A stretch of DNA of 64,000 bases. It comes from Betaproteobacteria bacterium. Its GTDB lineage: Bacteria; Pseudomonadota; Gammaproteobacteria; Burkholderiales; Burkholderiaceae_D. A program made the translations under genes and the position numbers. Location of the stretch: the NCBI GenBank assembly GCA_013287275.1, contig JABDED010000001.1:62001-126000 (forward strand), read 5' to 3'. Positions 31,172-52,038 of this stretch are shown one piece after another. The first letter of the stretch is position 1. The number at the start of each line of letters is the position of its first letter. Below the pieces are notes generated by a model. That model had not been told where the DNA came from and made no database searches. It was given only the letters and a program-made list of their open reading frames with translations.

Positions 31172-31239
31172 AGGCTGTGTAATTTGGGGTGTACGGAGGA
31201 GGGTAGGAAAGATCCGTTACCGAAATCTCTCCCCCCTAA

Positions 31240-31273
31240 GAACCGTGCTTGCGACTTTCACCGCACACGGCTC
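31240..31273 (-). ncRNA. Group II intron domain V
   Basis: Minus-strand GAGCCGTGTGCGGTGAAAGTCGCAAGCACGGTTC: 34 nt, GAGCCGUG/CACGGUUC stem, GAAA tetraloop. Confidence 0.93.
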
Positions 31274-31290
31274 AAGCTTAACAAAAGCTC

Positions 31291-32994: not shown

Positions 32995-34168
32995 GCTGAG
33001 CCTCGGATAGTAGTGCCCGCCGAGGACGCAACTCCCCCGAAGGGGGAAGCTGTTCCCTTCGGGGCGATTTAAAAAAAATAACTATGTAAGTCGATTCAGT
33101 CGTTTTACGACTGTTGCACCAGATGGAAGTCTGCGCCCTTTCAAGCTGAGACAAATTTTGAATCTCTATCCGGACAATTACCGCCCGGCGTTCGCTTTTT
33201 CCATCCTCCCATGCCCGCTCCTCCAATAGCTTTCCTTACGGATTGCCTGCCGTCATTTCGATGATTTGAGAAGTTGGCGGAGAATCGGGTTTTCCACGTT
33301 CCCTGAGATACCGAACACGATTGATTACTTCGTGAACTGGCTGTTTAGAGTCTTCCTTTCCCCCAGTGGTTGTTAATGACGACGTATTCCCATCTTTAAC
33401 GAGAATAGCCAACCACGTACCATTTTGGTTTAGGCCAACAGCAGCTTGGGCCTATCGATAATTACGAGGGTTCAAACGGAAATTCACTTTACGTTACTCA
33501 TGCAGCACTAACCTAGCCCCTCAACCGCCTCACTGCTAGCAGTCTCCATCTAGTCACTCGCGTGAGTTCGATGCCGAATAAAGCTTGGGGGTACATTGTC
33601 TTCAAGGCTTCACACCCCATCGTTACCGATGACGCATGCTCGAATAGGTTGCAGATGGTCGTACATCCGGTCATAGCACCTGATATTCCGGGTATGACAA
33701 GATATCTCAGAGCTTTGCGCTCAAGATGCAGCAGCATTACTGCGCAAGTTTACTATCAGATCCATTGCTGGTTCGCTGTCAATGTCTCCTGGTAAGGGAA
33801 CATTTTACAAAACAAAATATATTTTCGCTTTGTCGTGTTTCAGCAACACCGACCGGCTTTTTGAGCATAAATTCAGCGAGTTAACGTCCAATATTCAGGC
33901 AAAACCTGCCTATAGGCGTCACAAGTCGAATGTAATTTGGTGGGAGCATCTGACGTATAACTACACGTTCTCGATAGGCGTAGTTCCACAGCCCACGCTA
34001 ACATCCATTGGAATCAACTTCAGATTCAAGGACTTAGCGAATGTTTTGAGGTTTGTAATGCTTCTAATGATTGCCGCAAGAGCGGCGTTTGAGCGACGCA
34101 CGTGTCGCACTAAAGAGGGTATCATAGCAGTCGTTTCAATAAGTTTATAGAATAAAGGCGCCAGAAAT

Positions 34169-43330: not shown

Positions 43331-43699
43331 ATGAAAGCCAGCAACAAACTGCAATCATCGTTCCAAGCCAAGCTTTTTCTGGGCGCCCTGCTCGCCGTAG
43401 TTACCCTGGGGATAGCATTAACTGCTCGTAATTCAGCCCCAACACCTGCTATCATGATGGATGACACGGTTCATACAGTGGTCATTTCCGCTAAACGCCT
43501 GTCTGCCGAAGAGAAGCAGGCAATGGCAGCTCAAGATGGCAATGATAAGGTCCAGACTGTGGTACTTACCGCAAAGCGCCTGTCGGCATCGGAAAAACAG
43601 GCCAGCTTGCGGGAAGAGCAGCAAACCAGGCATCACGCGGCCCGTTTGCTTACCCAAAATTCAGCTGACCGAGTCAAAGAAGCAACGCAATTTAGCTAA
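43331..43699 (+). CDS. Small membrane-anchored/exported hypothetical protein with internal tandem repeat
   Basis: N-terminal hydrophobic segment (LFLGALLAVVTLGIALTA); repeats TVHTVVISAKRLSAEEKQAMAA and KVQTVVLTAKRLSASEKQASLR. Confidence 0.65.
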   Translation: MKASNKLQSSFQAKLFLGALLAVVTLGIALTARNSAPTPAIMMDDTVHTVVISAKRLSAEEKQAMAAQDGNDKVQTVVLTAKRLSASEKQASLREEQQTRHHAARLLTQNSADRVKEATQFS

Positions 43700-43743
43700 G
43701 ATTCGCATATTATTAGCACTAATATTTGGAAGACAGAATAATC

Positions 43744-44079
43744 ATGTTAAAGAAATCCGCTTTAATGGGCGTTGCCTTGTCCACCATGATGGTTAGCAGC
43801 GCCTTCTGCGCCAACCTGCTGGCGTTGACCATGCCGGAAAAAACCTCGCAGATGGACAGCCGCAAGGCACTCAGCGCAGCATCCGCTTCTGCTTCCGCTG
43901 CCGGCGCGGCAGCACAGCCGGTCTACCTGGACCGGACCGGAGTCGACCGTGCTTCCATCCACTTGCAGATTTTGCAGCAAACGACGACCCATTTTGCCCA
44001 AACCTGCCCAGATAAAAAAAACTCCGCTGACGAGATCAACGGCGGCCGCGCATCAGTGAAGCCTGTCAGCCAGTCCTGA
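43744..44079 (+). CDS. Small exported hypothetical protein
   Basis: Signal peptide MLKKSALMGVALSTMMVSSAFCAN; start at 43744. Confidence 0.55.
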   Translation: MLKKSALMGVALSTMMVSSAFCANLLALTMPEKTSQMDSRKALSAASASASAAGAAAQPVYLDRTGVDRASIHLQILQQTTTHFAQTCPDKKNSADEINGGRASVKPVSQS

Positions 44080-44445: not shown

Positions 44446-45168
44446 CTATTTTTTACTTTCGGTTATGCTGTCGATCTCCGTCTGCGTGAGACCGTACTTT
44501 GCCATGCGGGTACGGTGGTCGGCCGAACCGAGATACCCGCGAAGTTGCTCATTCACGGCATGCAAAAGGCTCTGATTGCTTTTACTGAACGAGAAAGCAC
44601 CGACAGGAGCTTTCCCATACTTGCCTATTTCGTGTGCAATTGCTTCCAGCTCCTTATTTTCGCCGGCAATGACACGGTTACCAACGGCCGTGGCTGCAAA
44701 CGCGTCGATCTTTCCTGCGAGGAGCGCAGCAACCGCGTCAGGTTGGTGCTTGAACATTATGATCTGGCTATCGCTCACGCCGGCCGATTTTGCGGAGTCA
44801 AACTGAATCTGGCCCGGAATAATCCCGAGCCGCGCATCGCTCGTCGCCGCCACTGCCTCGTAGCTCGTAAGCGCTTTCGGATTACCGCGATGCACTACAA
44901 AACCATCGCCTAACGTCCAGACCGGCACGCTGAATGCGACGTGCTTTGCACGTTCAGCTGTCGCGAAAATTGGCACATTCATGTCCCAGCGCCCCTCCTG
45001 CACACCAGGCAGAAACTCTTCGAACGAGGTCAATTGATACTCGATGGTTGTGGCGCCAGCCGCGCGTAGCACCACATCGGCCAGTTCGATGTCCGCGCCC
45101 GTCGCAGAATTATCCTGGCCAGTCCAGTAGAAAGGCGGTTCCTCTATATATGCGACTCTTACTTTCAT
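44446..45168 (-). CDS. Solute-binding protein family 3-like protein without evident signal peptide
   Basis: MKVRVAYIEEPPFYWTGQDNSATGADIELADVVLRAAGATTIEYQLTSFEEFLPGVQEGRWDMNVPIF; upstream in-frame extension (to 45249) is not a signal peptide. Confidence 0.8.
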   Translation of the reverse strand: MKVRVAYIEEPPFYWTGQDNSATGADIELADVVLRAAGATTIEYQLTSFEEFLPGVQEGRWDMNVPIFATAERAKHVAFSVPVWTLGDGFVVHRGNPKALTSYEAVAATSDARLGIIPGQIQFDSAKSAGVSDSQIIMFKHQPDAVAALLAGKIDAFAATAVGNRVIAGENKELEAIAHEIGKYGKAPVGAFSFSKSNQSLLHAVNEQLRGYLGSADHRTRMAKYGLTQTEIDSITESKK

Positions 45169-45447
45169 TTTGCACTCAATATATTTAGATGTTAATGTTC
45201 TGACCACCTGCTGCGGAGATGAGCGTTTTATCCGTGCATTGGTGGACAATCACTGAAACTAGGCGTCCATTTGCGACCGGTGAAATCATCTGCAACAGTA
45301 TCGCCAACGATGCATGAAGTGGTCACCTGAGGAAGTGTTGCTATTACAGGAAACTCCACCCGTTGCTAAGGGAAATCAATTCCCCAATAAGCCGCACGGG
45401 AGTCCTTGCAATGCCAGTCGGACCACATATCTTGCCTTCCCACCCAA

Positions 45448-46647
45448 TCACTCAATAGCGGCGTCCATCGCTAACGACAGTGCGGCCAATGCGGGTCCGA
45501 GACGAGCAGGCGGCAGATAGCCAAAACCCAGCCGGAATACACGACTGCTTTCACCGAACCATGTTCCGGACGCAAGTTGCAAATCATGATCAGGTAACAG
45601 ATTCCAGAAGCGCGAGACGGCAGCGTAGTCGAACGCATCAGAGCGTAGGCGCAGACAGCACAACGCGCCCGCATCTGGCCGCACCCACTCTACACGCCTC
45701 TTTTCACTCTCGCACCAGGTCGACAGTTCTTCAAGGGCGCTCGCCAGCAAGCGCCGTCGCGAATCGAGCACACTTTCTTTGTTGCGCAGCAGAACTGCGG
45801 CAAGCGTTTCATCGAGCACTGAACCCGAGATTACTGTGTTCATCTTGGCGATGAGGAGACGTGACCGGAGGCCGGGGTCCGCCACGGTGAGCCAACCTGT
45901 CCGCAAGCCCGGTGCACCGAGCGCCTTTGATACAGAAGCGCCGGTGACTATTCGTGAGGCGAACCCCGCAAAACTTTCGAGAGCAGTATCGTCACCATAG
46001 GTGGCCTCTCGATAGGTCTCGTCAATGAAAAGTAAAGCTTCCGGAGACTTCCTATCCATTAAGGCGAGGAGCTTCTCGATTTCAGCGCGAGACGTCTGAA
46101 CACCGCTGGGATTCTGTGGCGACGCAATGCTTACCAGTTTGGTTTTCGGCGACAGTTTCGCATCAAGTTGGTCAAGATCCAACCTATAGCCGTTCTCGAA
46201 CGACAAATTCACTTCGCTGACGCTGACGCCGGCTCCAAGAAGGCAGTCGCGGCTTGGTGGAAAGCATGGCGTCACGAGAACGGCTTCGTCACCAGGCCGG
46301 CAGACTTCAAAAGCAAGAAGAAAAAGCCCGAGCGCCGTACCTTGTGTCGTGATGATCTGCTCGACTGGAATTTTACAGGCATCTGCAATTGCCTCGCGAA
46401 GCGTGACCGCGCCAGCGGATTTCCCATAGCCAAGCTTCAGATCGCGGATATTCTCAAGACCAGGCAAGTCCAAAAGTTCACCAACCGTTAAATCTTGCGA
46501 TGTGCTCTCCGCCAGATTGAATAGTCGATTCACATCAAGGAGTGAAATTATCTCGTTGTAAGGAAATCTACCGCGCCACTCTGGGGAAGTCGATACGCTG
46601 GAGTCGGAACTTTGTTTTTCGTCGAAATTTTTTTGCGAAGTCTTCAT
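45448..46647 (-). CDS. PLP-dependent aminotransferase class I/II
   Basis: SIASPQNPSGVQTSRAEIEKLL, LLFIDETYREATYG, SVSKALGAPGLRTGWL. Confidence 0.88.
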   Translation of the reverse strand: MKTSQKNFDEKQSSDSSVSTSPEWRGRFPYNEIISLLDVNRLFNLAESTSQDLTVGELLDLPGLENIRDLKLGYGKSAGAVTLREAIADACKIPVEQIITTQGTALGLFLLAFEVCRPGDEAVLVTPCFPPSRDCLLGAGVSVSEVNLSFENGYRLDLDQLDAKLSPKTKLVSIASPQNPSGVQTSRAEIEKLLALMDRKSPEALLFIDETYREATYGDDTALESFAGFASRIVTGASVSKALGAPGLRTGWLTVADPGLRSRLLIAKMNTVISGSVLDETLAAVLLRNKESVLDSRRRLLASALEELSTWCESEKRRVEWVRPDAGALCCLRLRSDAFDYAAVSRFWNLLPDHDLQLASGTWFGESSRVFRLGFGYLPPARLGPALAALSLAMDAAIE

Positions 46648-46715
46648 GTTTTCCTTGTATTTGTTGAGAATTTTTTACGTTGCATACCCGCCAGATGTCC
46701 GATTTGATTTGGCCT

Positions 46716-47591
46716 TTAGAACGCAAGTGAGCCGTCCACACACGTGATGCAAGAACCGCCGACGAATACCTTTCCGTTTGCATCCACGCTCACCTGTATA
46801 CGTCCGTCCCGACCTACGCAACGTCCTTGGGTCGCCACGTAGTCTCTTCCACCGGACGGCAACAGGCCGCGCTCCCACTGGAATGCAGCCACGCTTCCGT
46901 TACCGCTTCCGCAAACGGGATCCTCCTCCACCCCGCAGGATGGCGCGAAGGTACGGACCTCTATAGCCGCATCTCCGTGCTCGTGACTACCGAATACGGT
47001 CAGGCCAGTGACGCCGAGGCGGCGTTCGAACTCTGCCAACCTCACGAAATCCGGCCGCAGATCGAGTACGGAAGTCGCGTCGTTCATTTGCGCGACTACC
47101 CAAATGGCGCCGACGTTCACGATAGCTGGCGCAGTCTTGATGTCCACTTTGCGCCTGAGGATTAGTTCCAGCTCTGCAATATCTGCCGCATGCAGCGGCT
47201 CCAATTTAGCGGGCGGCAGGCCGAAGATGAGTCGGCGGTCTCCGTCTCGTTCCTCGACCGTCAGTTCAACAAGGCCGATGCTGCATTCTTGAATCAATCG
47301 GCCGCTTTGACGAGGTGTGACACGCCCAGCTTCCAGGAGGGCGTGAGCAGTGCCAAGTGTCGGATGCCCAGCAAAGGGAAGCTCACTATGCGGCGTAAAA
47401 ATTCGCAAACGATAGTCGGCCTCGCCTGTCGTGGGCGGAAGGACAAATGTGGTTTCAGAAAGCTTGGTCCAGCCCGCGATGGCCTGCATCGCGTCGGTGG
47501 TCAGCCCCTCGGCGTCCAGTACTACAGCAACCGGATTGCCCAGAAGTGGTCGGAGGGTGAAAACGTCAACCACTTTATAGGATCGTTTCAT
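46716..47591 (-). CDS. PhzF family isomerase/epimerase-like protein
   Basis: YKVVDVFTLRPLLGNPVAVVLDAEGL, SETTFVLPP, IFTPHSELPFAGHPTLGTAHAL, EDPVCGSGNGSVAAF. Confidence 0.92.
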   Translation of the reverse strand: MKRSYKVVDVFTLRPLLGNPVAVVLDAEGLTTDAMQAIAGWTKLSETTFVLPPTTGEADYRLRIFTPHSELPFAGHPTLGTAHALLEAGRVTPRQSGRLIQECSIGLVELTVEERDGDRRLIFGLPPAKLEPLHAADIAELELILRRKVDIKTAPAIVNVGAIWVVAQMNDATSVLDLRPDFVRLAEFERRLGVTGLTVFGSHEHGDAAIEVRTFAPSCGVEEDPVCGSGNGSVAAFQWERGLLPSGGRDYVATQGRCVGRDGRIQVSVDANGKVFVGGSCITCVDGSLAF

Positions 47592-47634
47592 ATTAGCCCT
47601 ATTGAGTTGGATAAAGAGACTCTCAGCGAATTGC

Positions 47635-48861
47635 CTAACACGCGAACGTCTCGTCAAATGCTGCCTTGATATCCGCGATCAGATCGGCCGGGTCTTCCAG
47701 GCCGACTGACAGGCGCAGATGACCATATTCGCGGAACACGTCCGGATAGCGTTCCGATCCACCTCGTCCCGCTTTTCCGACGTGCACGATCAGGGATTCA
47801 TCGTGGCCAAGTGATACCGCCGAGGTAATGAGACGAAGCTTGGCCACGAAGCGATTCTGTACATCAGGCTCACCTTTGACGGCGAAAGCGATTACGGCGC
47901 CATACCCCATGCCGCCAAATTGACGTGACGCAAGCTCATGCTGCGGATGGGACGGCAGCCCCGGGTATGCCACGAAGGCTACCCGCGGATCTTTGTCGAG
48001 AAAATCTGCAAGCTTCTGTGCCGTAGACATGTGCTTGGGCAAACGCAATGGCAGGGTCACTGATCCTCGCATGATGAGCCACGCATTGAAAGGTGAGATA
48101 GAGCCGCCCGCACCGACGAGCGCATCGCCTTTCAGCCGGCGGATCAGCTCCGCGCGACTAATGACAGCCCCGCCCATTGCATCGCCATGTCCGTTGATGT
48201 ACTTCGTCAGCGAATGAACAACGAGATCCGCGCCATGTTCGAGCCCTCGAAACATCGGCGGGGGCGTGAACGTTGCGTCAATTGACAGCATGGCGCCGAC
48301 ATCATGCGCGATTTTTGCAAGCGCTTCGATATCAGCCACCTTCGTAGTCGGATTGGCAATCGTCTCGGCATGGACCAGTTTCGTGTTCGGGCGCACAGCT
48401 TCCCGTACTGCGGCAAGGTCGCTGATGTCGACGAACGTTGCTTCGATACCATAGCGTTTCGGGATCAATTCATTGAAAAGACGCCAAACGGCCTCGTACG
48501 TCACATCGCTGACAATGACATGGTCGCCACTTTTCAGAAGTGTGAAGAATATCGAATGCAGCGCAGCAACGCCGGTGCTGAAAACGGCGGCATCTTCACC
48601 GCGCTCCAACGCTGCGAGCTTGCGCTCTAGACAAAGCTGGTTGTGACCTGAGTTACGAGTATAGAACAGCGCTTGAGAATCCGACCAGTCGAGTGTGGAG
48701 GGGTCATCAGGCAATTTGTACGAGTTTGCCATGACGATTGGCGTGCGGATTGCACCCGTCGTAGCGTCAATGATATTTCCCCCGTGTACTGCCTGACTCT
48801 CGAATGAAAGAGTCGCCAGGTGCTGCTTGTCCGGACGTTGCTGAATGTTCTTGGTTGTCAT
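47635..48861 (-). CDS. Cys/Met metabolism PLP-dependent enzyme (cystathionine gamma-synthase/lyase family)
   Basis: YTRNSGHNQLCLERKLAALERGEDAAVFSTGVAA, ADLVVHSLTKYINGHGDAMGG; start at MTTKNIQQ. Confidence 0.9.
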   Translation of the reverse strand: MTTKNIQQRPDKQHLATLSFESQAVHGGNIIDATTGAIRTPIVMANSYKLPDDPSTLDWSDSQALFYTRNSGHNQLCLERKLAALERGEDAAVFSTGVAALHSIFFTLLKSGDHVIVSDVTYEAVWRLFNELIPKRYGIEATFVDISDLAAVREAVRPNTKLVHAETIANPTTKVADIEALAKIAHDVGAMLSIDATFTPPPMFRGLEHGADLVVHSLTKYINGHGDAMGGAVISRAELIRRLKGDALVGAGGSISPFNAWLIMRGSVTLPLRLPKHMSTAQKLADFLDKDPRVAFVAYPGLPSHPQHELASRQFGGMGYGAVIAFAVKGEPDVQNRFVAKLRLITSAVSLGHDESLIVHVGKAGRGGSERYPDVFREYGHLRLSVGLEDPADLIADIKAAFDETFAC

Positions 48862-48904
48862 ATGCCACCTCTTGCGATAGAGAACGGGATCAAGCGTCCA
48901 ATTA

Positions 48905-50317
48905 TTAATTGATCTTTCTGATACATACAACCTTCGGCTGAGTCATTTCCTCATACGCAAACCGAACACCTTCACGGCCAAGGCTTCCGTACTTGAATCC
49001 TCCGAACGGCATGGCATCGAGCCTGTAGTCCGATGAGTCGTTGATCATGACCCCGCCGGCTTCCAGTTTGTCGGCCGCTTTAAGAGCTGCATGCAGGTCA
49101 TTTGTGAAGATGCCGGCATGGAGACTGTATTCGGGACTGTTGGCGAGCGAAAGAGCATCATCCAGGGTCTCGATCTGTTGAAGAACGACGACCGGGCTGA
49201 ACACCTCCTGCCGCCACAGGCTGCATTCGAAGTTGACATCCTCAAGAACGGTCGGTGTGTAGAGAGCACCTTCTTGAATATTGCCACAAAGCAGTTTGGC
49301 GCCTTGGTCGATCGCTGCATCCACTACCTCTTTCGTCCGCGCCGCCGACTGCACCGTAATCATTGGCCCGACATCGGTATCCAGCAACGCAGGATTGCCC
49401 ACCTTCAGCGCTTTGGTGCCGGCAACGAAGCGCTTCTTGAACTCTTCATAGATGGACGACTGGATCAGAATGCGTTGCGTCCCGATACAGTTCTGCCCCG
49501 CGGCCCAAAATGCTCCGGAGAGGCACGATTCAACCGCATCTTCAATGTCGCAGTCGCCTAGTACGATGACCGGTGCGTTACCCCCCAGATCCATCGCAAA
49601 CTTTTTCAGACCTGCAGACTTGGCAATTTTTTCTCCGGTGGCGAACCCACCAGTGAAAGAAATCATCCTCACGTCCCGGAATGAGACGAGTGCTTCGCCG
49701 AGAGCTGCACCGCCCGTCGCGACCGACACGACGTTCGATGGCATTCCTGCAGCCATCAGATAGTCGACGAGTTTTATAGCTGAAAGAGGTGTCAGATCGG
49801 ATGGCTTGAGGATCACGGCATTGCCCCCGGCGATCGCCGGGCCTAGCTTATGCGCAACCAGGTTTAGCGGGTCGTTGTATGGAGTGATGGCAACAATGAT
49901 GCCGAGAGGTTCCCGAGTGAACCATCCCTGCCGGTTTTCGGATCCGGCATACGCGTCGAACGGTATTACCTCACCGCCATTTCGACGAGCCTCATCGGCG
50001 GAAAGTTTGAGCGTATTCACGCAGCGCGACACTTCCTTTTTGGCTTGCTTGACCGTCTTGCCGGCTTCCGCGACGATGAGGTCTGTAAACGTGTCCTTGT
50101 CACGCTCCACCAGCAATGCACAGGTCTCGAGCACGCGAGCCCGTTCATAACGGGACAAGCTACGGCAAACGCGCGCGCCCTCCTTCGCTGTCTGGATAAT
50201 CATTTGCGCATCTTCCGGTGGAATGTTCGCGACTGCGCCTACTTCGACGCCATCAAAGGGATTGCTCACCGAGATGAAGCCGATCGACTGGCTCGCGGAC
50301 AATAGGAAATCATTCAT
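48905..50317 (-). CDS. NAD(P)-dependent aldehyde dehydrogenase
   Basis: [67 protein letters not shown] catalytic Cys. Confidence 0.92.
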
Positions 50318-50504
50318 TTAGAAAATCCTTCCGCCGTCTGCGCGGATGCTCTTAAGCCCAGTGAAATATTGAATTCGGGCAGCGGAATCAGCACTGACTT
50401 AATAGAAGCTAAAGCAGCGAGAAAGGTGTTGCTGAGGGCGGGCATCTGGGCTCCTATGGATCTGACAGGGTGCAAGCATCGTAGCAGGCCAGGATGAACC
50501 ATAA

Positions 50505-50540
50505 CAGTCACAGTTTTGTGTTGATTTTGGCAGCACAGTT
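50505..50540. promoter_or_regulatory. Candidate MocR operator: direct repeats CAGTCACAGTT ... CAGCACAGTT
   Basis: Direct repeats at 50505-50515 and 50531-50540 in the divergent intergenic region. Confidence 0.35.
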
Positions 50541-50604
50541 CGCATTGACAAAGCGCTGCCGCCAAATCAATAATTGTGCGTTCACCCATCATGAAAGTTC
50601 CTCC

Positions 50605-52038
50605 ATGGACACACAAATTTCGTTCCGTTATGAACAGTTGGCTGACCTCATCGTCGGCATGATCGACAACGGCACGCTCGCCCCAGGTGCACGCGTGCCA
50701 TCCGTGCGCACAGTCAGTGAGCAGCACCGCATCAGCGTTTCTACAGCACTACAGGCCTATCATTTGCTTGAGGATCGTGGCGTCCTCGTCGCGCGGCCGC
50801 AGTCGGGTTTTTTTGTTGCAGGGACGGGGCGCGGAGCACTTGCGCTGCCGTCGACCTCGCGCCCGCGTGCACGCGCATCGACCGTGTCGATTTGTGGAGC
50901 CGTTTCAGCGTTGCTCGAGCACGCATCGAACTCGGCTCTTGTGCCGCTTGGCTGTGCCGTACCCGAAGCGACGGTGTTGCAATCGCAGCGACTTGATTTC
51001 GCGCTTGCGCGTGCAGCACGTCAACACGGCTCGCGGTACAACGTCTATTGCTCGCCGCTTGGCGATCCGAGTCTGCGCCGCGAAATCGCGAAGCGGGCAA
51101 TGCGCGTCGACCATGCGCTGTCGCCCGATGATGTGCTTATCACGAGCGGGTGCACCGAGGCGCTGACGCTCGCGCTTACTGCCGTCGCCAAACCCGGCGA
51201 TACGATTGCAGTTGAATCGCCTACTTATTTTGGGCTCCTGCATACCCTCGAAGTACTAGGCCTGAAGGCATTGGAGTTGCCGACCGATCCGACGCGAGGC
51301 GTCAACGTTGATGCGCTCGCAAGCTTGCTCGATACGGAGCCGGTGGCGGCTTGCCTGCTGTCGTCCAATTTCAACAATCCGCTTGGCTCAGCAATGGCCG
51401 AAGCTGACAAACGGGCTCTTCTCACACTGCTCGCGCGGCATGCCGTGCCGCTGATTGAAGACGACGTTTATGGTGATATCCACTTTGGTCGCGCTCGGCC
51501 GAAGCCGTTCATCGCGCTTGATGGCGGCGCCAATACGATCTATTGCAGTTCGTTCTCGAAGACCCTGGCGCCAGGATACCGGATCGGCTGGATGGTGGCA
51601 GGCGCCTATGCGCAGCGTGTGATGGAGCGTAAGCTTGCGTTTAGTCTCTGCGGCCCTGTCTTGCCCCAAGTTGCGCTCGCGGATTTCTTGGCGAGCGGGG
51701 TCTATGACGCCCACTTGCGCCGCATTCGCCGCATCTTCCAAGAGAACCTCGCGCGCATGACGCGCACGATAGAGGAAAGCTTTCCAGCTGAAACAAAAGT
51801 GAGTCAGCCAGTAGGTGGCTTCATGCTCTGGCTCGAACTGCCAAGGCGTTTCGATTCGCGCTTACTCTTCGATGAAGCACTCGAACAAGGCATTTGCTTC
51901 GCGCCTGGCGACGTCTTCTCAGCGAGCAGGCGCTTCCGCAATTGTCTACGCTTGAGCGTGGGATCTGGGTGGAGCGATCGCATCGAAAACGGCATCCGGC
52001 GACTAGGTCAGCTCGCGCAGGAACAGCTTGCGCGTTGA
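50605..52038 (+). CDS. MocR-type GntR/aminotransferase fusion transcriptional regulator
   Basis: N-term wHTH (YEQLADLIVGMIDNGTLAPGARVPSVRTVSEQHRISVSTALQAYHLLEDRGVL) fused to class I aminotransferase domain (SSFSKTLAPGYRIGWMVAG). Confidence 0.94.
   Translation: MDTQISFRYEQLADLIVGMIDNGTLAPGARVPSVRTVSEQHRISVSTALQAYHLLEDRGVLVARPQSGFFVAGTGRGALALPSTSRPRARASTVSICGAVSALLEHASNSALVPLGCAVPEATVLQSQRLDFALARAARQHGSRYNVYCSPLGDPSLRREIAKRAMRVDHALSPDDVLITSGCTEALTLALTAVAKPGDTIAVESPTYFGLLHTLEVLGLKALELPTDPTRGVNVDALASLLDTEPVAACLLSSNFNNPLGSAMAEADKRALLTLLARHAVPLIEDDVYGDIHFGRARPKPFIALDGGANTIYCSSFSKTLAPGYRIGWMVAGAYAQRVMERKLAFSLCGPVLPQVALADFLASGVYDAHLRRIRRIFQENLARMTRTIEESFPAETKVSQPVGGFMLWLELPRRFDSRLLFDEALEQGICFAPGDVFSASRRFRNCLRLSVGSGWSDRIENGIRRLGQLAQEQLAR

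Follow-up and report, generated by a model that had tools for sequence, protein, structure and literature searches.

A putative Burkholderiales variant of the canavanine-utilisation operon with an additional MocR-linked gene module

Identification of the gene cluster

The stretch of DNA analysed in this study (64,000 nucleotides of the Betaproteobacteria bacterium contig JABDED010000001.1, positions 62,001 to 126,000; referred to as the window) carries at positions 44446 to 52038 a cluster of six genes. They encode an aldehyde dehydrogenase (ALDH), a pyridoxal phosphate (PLP)-dependent lyase of the cystathionine gamma-synthase (CGS) family, a PhzF-family protein, an aminotransferase-like enzyme (AT), a substrate-binding protein (SBP) and a MocR-type regulator. 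With a probability of roughly 0.6, the six genes represent the canavanine-utilisation operon in a version typical of these Burkholderiales. Canavanine is a toxic arginine mimic from legumes, and most likely the genes let a soil bacterium degrade it by two enzymes of a known route, together with a less understood set of proteins that has its own switch. Orthology, identity of the catalytic sites and conservation of the gene set and of its operator were computed, and we infer the substrate, every reaction proposed here and the binding of MocR.

Five of the genes are located on the minus strand, and the mocR gene is divergent on the plus strand. An earlier note on this DNA had described this arrangement, including a gap of about 280 bp, and its coordinates were confirmed, as were the protein families by Pfam analysis; the gap, of about 279 bp, lies ahead of the SBP gene. 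The same note had regarded the cassette as a candidate for an undescribed pathway, which does not apply to the lyase and the ALDH, because both are orthologues of described enzymes of the canavanine operon (PMC10018355).

The lyase and the aldehyde dehydrogenase

The lyase gene (47635-48861, minus strand; Pfam Cys_Met_Meta_PP) is located in an open reading frame (ORF) that is open from position 48930, with the ATG at 48861 as the likely start, and its product is a predicted canavanine-gamma-lyase. Such enzymes convert canavanine to homoserine and hydroxyguanidine (PMC10018355). The gene of CtdA, a B3/4 protein deacylating canavanyl-tRNA-Arg, precedes the operon for canavanine utilisation in Pseudomonas canavaninivorans, is found beside the canavanine degradation genes in Rhizobium leguminosarum and thus marks the canavanine operon as published (PMC10018355).

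When species genomes were searched for the lyase, 80 loci were obtained. In the lyase tree, the window protein and those of the loci L001 to L008 form one Burkholderiales clade (SH-aLRT 100), next to which are a Paraburkholderia protein (L011) and then the proteins of Pseudomonas and rhizobia, which are about 70-73% identical to the window lyase. The lyase is thus nested within a clade of CtdA-neighbouring lyases from Pseudomonas, rhizobia and Actinobacteria. A B3/4 protein is encoded beside many lyases of this clade (PF03483 was confirmed for the member at L012, and the one on R. leguminosarum pRLN3 is annotated as B3/4), and it is also linked to the lyase in Paraburkholderia L011 and in some Actinobacteria. 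At loci that are not of the Burkholderiales type, for example L012 and pRLN3, the lyase often occurs with the B3/4 protein, a homoserine dehydrogenase, an ALDH, an SMR exporter and an amino-acid ABC transporter.

The catalytic positions were compared with those of the Citrobacter methionine gamma-lyase (MGL) in the CtdA-linked and the Burkholderiales lyases. They are identical in both sets except for the PLP-contact position Ser207 (MGL numbering), which is alanine in five of the nine Burkholderiales lyases and serine in the window protein; ten positions elsewhere in the protein differ consistently between the two sets. MGL Cys115 is replaced by alanine in all members of the clade, the lysine near position 239 by valine in nearly all, and Gly114 by glutamate in most. 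An operon for sulfur amino acids, with a methionine or homocysteine gamma-lyase, is therefore highly improbable and was rejected: among solved structures MGL is nearest to the lyase, but the exchange of the MGL-specific cysteine and lysine, as across the canavanine clade, speaks against such a function, and all MGL and CGS equivalog scores are far under the cut-off. For the same reason methionine, homocysteine and ethionine, which the earlier note had suggested for growth tests, are unlikely substrates. Orthology and catalytic-site identity favour canavanine, whereas the absence of CtdA and the presence of an added module, both described below, call for caution; the chance that the protein is a canavanine-gamma-lyase with canavanine as its substrate is roughly two in three.

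The ALDH (48905-50317, minus strand; Pfam Aldedh) is orthologous to the canavanine-operon aldehyde dehydrogenase and is predicted to be a non-phosphorylating L-aspartate-semialdehyde dehydrogenase. It is 70% identical to the enzyme of the Pseudomonas canavanine operon and 65% identical to that of R. leguminosarum. The ALDH tree agrees with the lyase tree in its main groups and in the nearest relatives, with Burkholderiales next to Pseudomonas, followed by the rhizobia. The ALDH of Caballeronia L007 (8590-9993) is unusually divergent, with 55% identity to the window protein and a long branch in the tree.

In the 2022 paper on canavanine-gamma-lyase, the induced downstream enzymes were reportedly homoserine dehydrogenase, aspartate-semialdehyde dehydrogenase and aspartase. 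An aspartate-dehydrogenase gene is present in four of the Paraburkholderia/Caballeronia clusters (the L002 member scored above the cut-off), and the canavanine-type locus on R. leguminosarum pRLN3 carries an aspartase gene; both fit aspartate as the product of the route.

Recurrence of the gene set

The full set was found at a single locus in seven other genomes, namely those of Undibacterium terreum and six Paraburkholderia/Caballeronia strains. The arrangement is therefore not due to chance, and the earlier suggestion is borne out that amino-acid genes including one for a gamma-acting PLP lyase are conserved together in linkage with mocR. U. terreum (L001) has the order MocR|ALDH-CGS-PhzF-AT-SBP, with 85-94% identity to the window proteins. 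In Paraburkholderia L003 and L005 the order is MocR|AT-SBP-PhzF-ALDH-CGS, with an inserted FAH-family gene in L005, and in L002, L004, L006 and Caballeronia L007 all or most of a block encoding LysR, aspartate dehydrogenase, a second ALDH and an MFS transporter lies between SBP and PhzF. In Variovorax dw_308 the set is split, with the lyase at L008 and MocR|AT-SBP-PhzF at L120. The fact that the set stays linked despite these changes of gene order argues for a shared function.

The inserted block comprises L002 2685-7479 and is present in part in L004, L006 and L007; in L002, L004 and L006 another copy of the probable MocR operator comes after it. Downstream of the SBP gene, U. terreum has a RidA-family gene (L001 14638-15036), and no RidA match was found in the window.

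The AT, PhzF and substrate-binding proteins

The AT (45448-46647, minus strand; Pfam Aminotran_1_2) is a fold-type-I PLP enzyme possessing the PLP lysine, the Asn and Asp/Tyr residues and the carboxylate arginine. Its best NCBIfam matches are GntC (170.6 bits, cut-off 415) and VioD (148 bits, cut-off 390.9), cyclases acting on arginine analogues; it shares their PLP residues, but it is not a member of these families. The PhzF-family protein (46716-47591, minus strand; PF02567, PhzC-PhzF, 210 bits) has an isomerase fold and is within its family (TIGR00654, 223.6 bits, cut-off 76.2); its ORF extends to 47657, with the likely start at 47591.

The SBP (44446-45168, minus strand; Pfam SBP_bac_3) has an ORF extending to 45249 and a likely start at 45168. 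In each of the eight homologues the protein begins at its first beta-strand (MKVRVAYIEEPP), and the earlier description as signal-less is therefore correct; the relatives from other Burkholderiales, with 31-34% identity, possess signal or lipoprotein sequences. Nearest to it, both as family (147 bits, cut-off 190.9) and as solved structure (2q88), is the ectoine-binding protein EhuB, from which it differs by its score below the cut-off and by having neither a signal peptide nor a linked permease. With mean pLDDT values of 40 (SBP) and 56 (AT), the AlphaFold models did not reach the quality needed for a fold search and were left aside.

Together, these three proteins constitute a second module that is linked to MocR and can be separated from lyase and ALDH; parts of it are also found by themselves. 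AT and PhzF genes with a divergent mocR and without lyase and ALDH are found in Variovorax VAI-C (MocR|AT-PhzF), and MocR|AT alone in Variovorax PDNC026, V. boronicumulans and the genome G549; conversely, Pseudomonas and rhizobia have lyase and ALDH without the AT. The earlier idea of one linear pathway of lysis, isomerisation, transamination and oxidation is not supported by this distribution. At E <= 1e-50 the AT was detected in only two of 400 genomes of the order, the window's own among them. Each of the eight related genomes in the Burkholderiales lyase clade has its orthologue; among 19 lyase-holding genomes searched, a close orthologue was found only in the Variovorax one (76%), the next best match having 38% identity.

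It might be assumed that two unrelated units, canavanine lyase plus ALDH and an independent MocR-AT-PhzF-SBP unit for some other compound, were joined at one locus by chance or transfer. The Variovorax and G549 loci without lyase and ALDH would agree with this, as would Variovorax dw_308, in which the lyase is unlinked from AT-SBP-PhzF. However, the set remains together through reordering, every examined genome with a lyase of the Burkholderiales clade has the AT, and the MocR repeat also precedes PhzF-ALDH-CGS where the cluster is split; such a joining of unrelated units is quite improbable.

Predicted regulation by MocR

The regulator (50605-52038, plus strand) is a MocR protein, consisting of a GntR winged helix-turn-helix domain fused to an aminotransferase-like domain (Aminotran_1_2). 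Its ORF is open from 50494, and the start is probably at 50605, because the conserved operator and promoter-like boxes fall inside the additional 5' part of the ORF.

The predicted operator (50510-50540, plus strand) is the direct repeat ACARTT-N19-ACARTT with a 25-bp period. This repeat is present in all nine aligned MocR intergenic regions, L120 being a tenth MocR/AT locus, and is located upstream of AT or ALDH. The pattern occurs once in the window, with 0.00 matches expected (100 shuffles). Eleven whole genomes were searched with a longer form of the pattern, one mismatch being allowed and the reversed pattern serving as control. Matches were obtained in eight of them (once in G000, G001, G004, G007 and G549; twice in G002, G003 and G005), and none in G006, G008 and G009 or with the reversed pattern. 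The second copy in G002 and G005 lies upstream of PhzF-ALDH-CGS and would tie these genes to the same regulator; that of G003 has one mismatch and is far from the cluster. The repeat, conserved at these loci and nearly absent from the rest of the genomes, is a probable MocR operator. A survey of MocR regulons describes direct-repeat operators as well as regulon members of the PhzF family (PMC5320631); the present system resembles these regulons in the MocR architecture, the predicted direct-repeat operator and a PhzF protein in the putative regulon, and differs from them in the ACARTT repeat of 25-bp period and in gene content.

A predicted sigma70-like promoter of mocR (50545-50574, plus strand) consists of TTGACA (50545-50550) and AATAAT (50569-50574) at a distance of 18 bp, and the same boxes are found in L001. 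For the divergent operon, the predicted -10 box is TACGAT (50478-50483, minus strand), with a weak -35 box TGTTAT (50506-50501) adjoining the operator; the sequence of the -10 region, GCATCGTAGC, is kept in six of the nine aligned intergenic regions.

Proposed degradation of canavanine and alternative explanations

It is proposed that MocR, which probably senses an amino-acid ligand with the PLP domain, activates the divergent operon by binding to both ACARTT repeats. The lyase would cleave canavanine by elimination to homoserine and hydroxyguanidine, homoserine would be oxidised to aspartate semialdehyde by a housekeeping homoserine dehydrogenase, and the ALDH would form aspartate, which could enter the central metabolism. 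The housekeeping enzyme is proposed because no dedicated homoserine dehydrogenase is linked; all seven relatives examined possess one or two such genes elsewhere in the genome, so that homoserine can still reach aspartate semialdehyde. AT, PhzF and SBP might provide a side route for canavanine or a derivative, in which the AT could perform alpha-transamination or other PLP chemistry, PhzF a keto-enol or imine isomerisation, and the SBP binding in the cytosol. That the best family matches of the AT act on arginine analogues is in favour of the canavanine reading.

The cluster thus resembles the canavanine operon of P. canavaninivorans and R. leguminosarum in the orthologous lyase, the ALDH (62-71% identity), the same catalytic residues and the homoserine/aspartate chemistry to be expected. 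It differs from that operon in that CtdA was not found in the related genomes and that neither a homoserine dehydrogenase nor an SMR exporter, an ABC importer or an XRE-cupin regulator is linked; MocR, AT, PhzF and the signal-less SBP are present instead.

Several of these observations weigh against the degradation of canavanine. Seven Burkholderiales genomes with a lyase of this clade (G001-G007) gave no match to the CtdA query, which did match in four genomes of the other, CtdA-linked type; absences in the window's own genome, of which 56% is complete, were not used. Mischarging with canavanine should trouble the CtdA-free genomes. Moreover, no SMR exporter, ABC importer or homoserine dehydrogenase is linked in the examined Burkholderiales clusters. 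Finally, a Rhizobium SL42 plasmid carries RidA-AT-ALDH-CGS (L108 11238-15653), in which the AT is 61% identical to that of the window and ALDH and CGS, with 40% and 41%, are different paralogues; the AT may therefore belong to another substrate.

The clade might accordingly have been re-purposed, with lyase and ALDH now using a different gamma-substituted amino acid, one not loaded onto tRNA-Arg, such as canaline or another homoserine ether, and with AT, PhzF and SBP dedicated to it. The missing CtdA, the unlinked exporter, importer and homoserine dehydrogenase and the Rhizobium SL42 locus are in line with this, as is the presence of the AT throughout the related genomes of the lyase clade, compared to at most 38% identity in 18 other lyase-holding genomes. 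Against it, the catalytic positions of the lyase are unchanged, only ten positions of the protein differ consistently from the CtdA-linked set, and the ALDH is also conserved; a change of substrate is possible, if rather unlikely.

If canavanine is the substrate, the bacteria might handle the toxic arginine mimic by a CtdA-free strategy. The cytosolic SBP, as a binder or an enzyme, would lower the concentration of the free amino acid, which would be cleared by gamma-elimination and by a new AT-PhzF route at once. Cyclohexadienyl dehydratase arose from transport proteins of the SBP type and is a parallel for an SBP acting as an enzyme. This proposal is tentative and, on balance, unlikely.

On the present reading, the occurrence of the canavanine lyase, an enzyme described from Pseudomonadaceae and Rhizobiales, would extend to Undibacterium, Paraburkholderia, Caballeronia and Variovorax. 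The cluster also points to genomes that seemingly manage without the tRNA-editing safeguard, and it provides a context, a regulator and a DNA site for three families, namely a PhzF protein, a GntC-like PLP enzyme and a cytosolic SBP.

Further sequence features

The likely starts of the lyase, PhzF, SBP and mocR genes were derived from homologue alignments and ribosome-binding sites. In comparison to U. terreum, most nucleotide changes are at third codon positions (ALDH 141 of 201, CGS 130 of 159, AT 106 of 143, SBP 64 of 91), and this excess indicates that all four genes are under purifying selection.

An ORF of 43 amino acids between mocR and the ALDH gene (50314-50445, minus strand) was rejected as a gene; its changes relative to L001 of U. 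terreum are even over the codon positions (12, 7 and 11). It has a good ribosome-binding site and a stop codon overlapping the ALDH start, and it is open in L001, too. An Rfam scan revealed neither a guanidine riboswitch nor any other Rfam family within the cluster.

Elsewhere on the minus strand of the window, Rfam matches to group II introns were obtained at 31198-31275 (RF00029) and 33517-33670 (RF02012), which possibly belong to one intron. A small ORF on the plus strand (43331-43699), adjoining another small ORF (43726-44079), contains two copies of a motif similar to VV-x-x-AKRLSA-x-EKQA.

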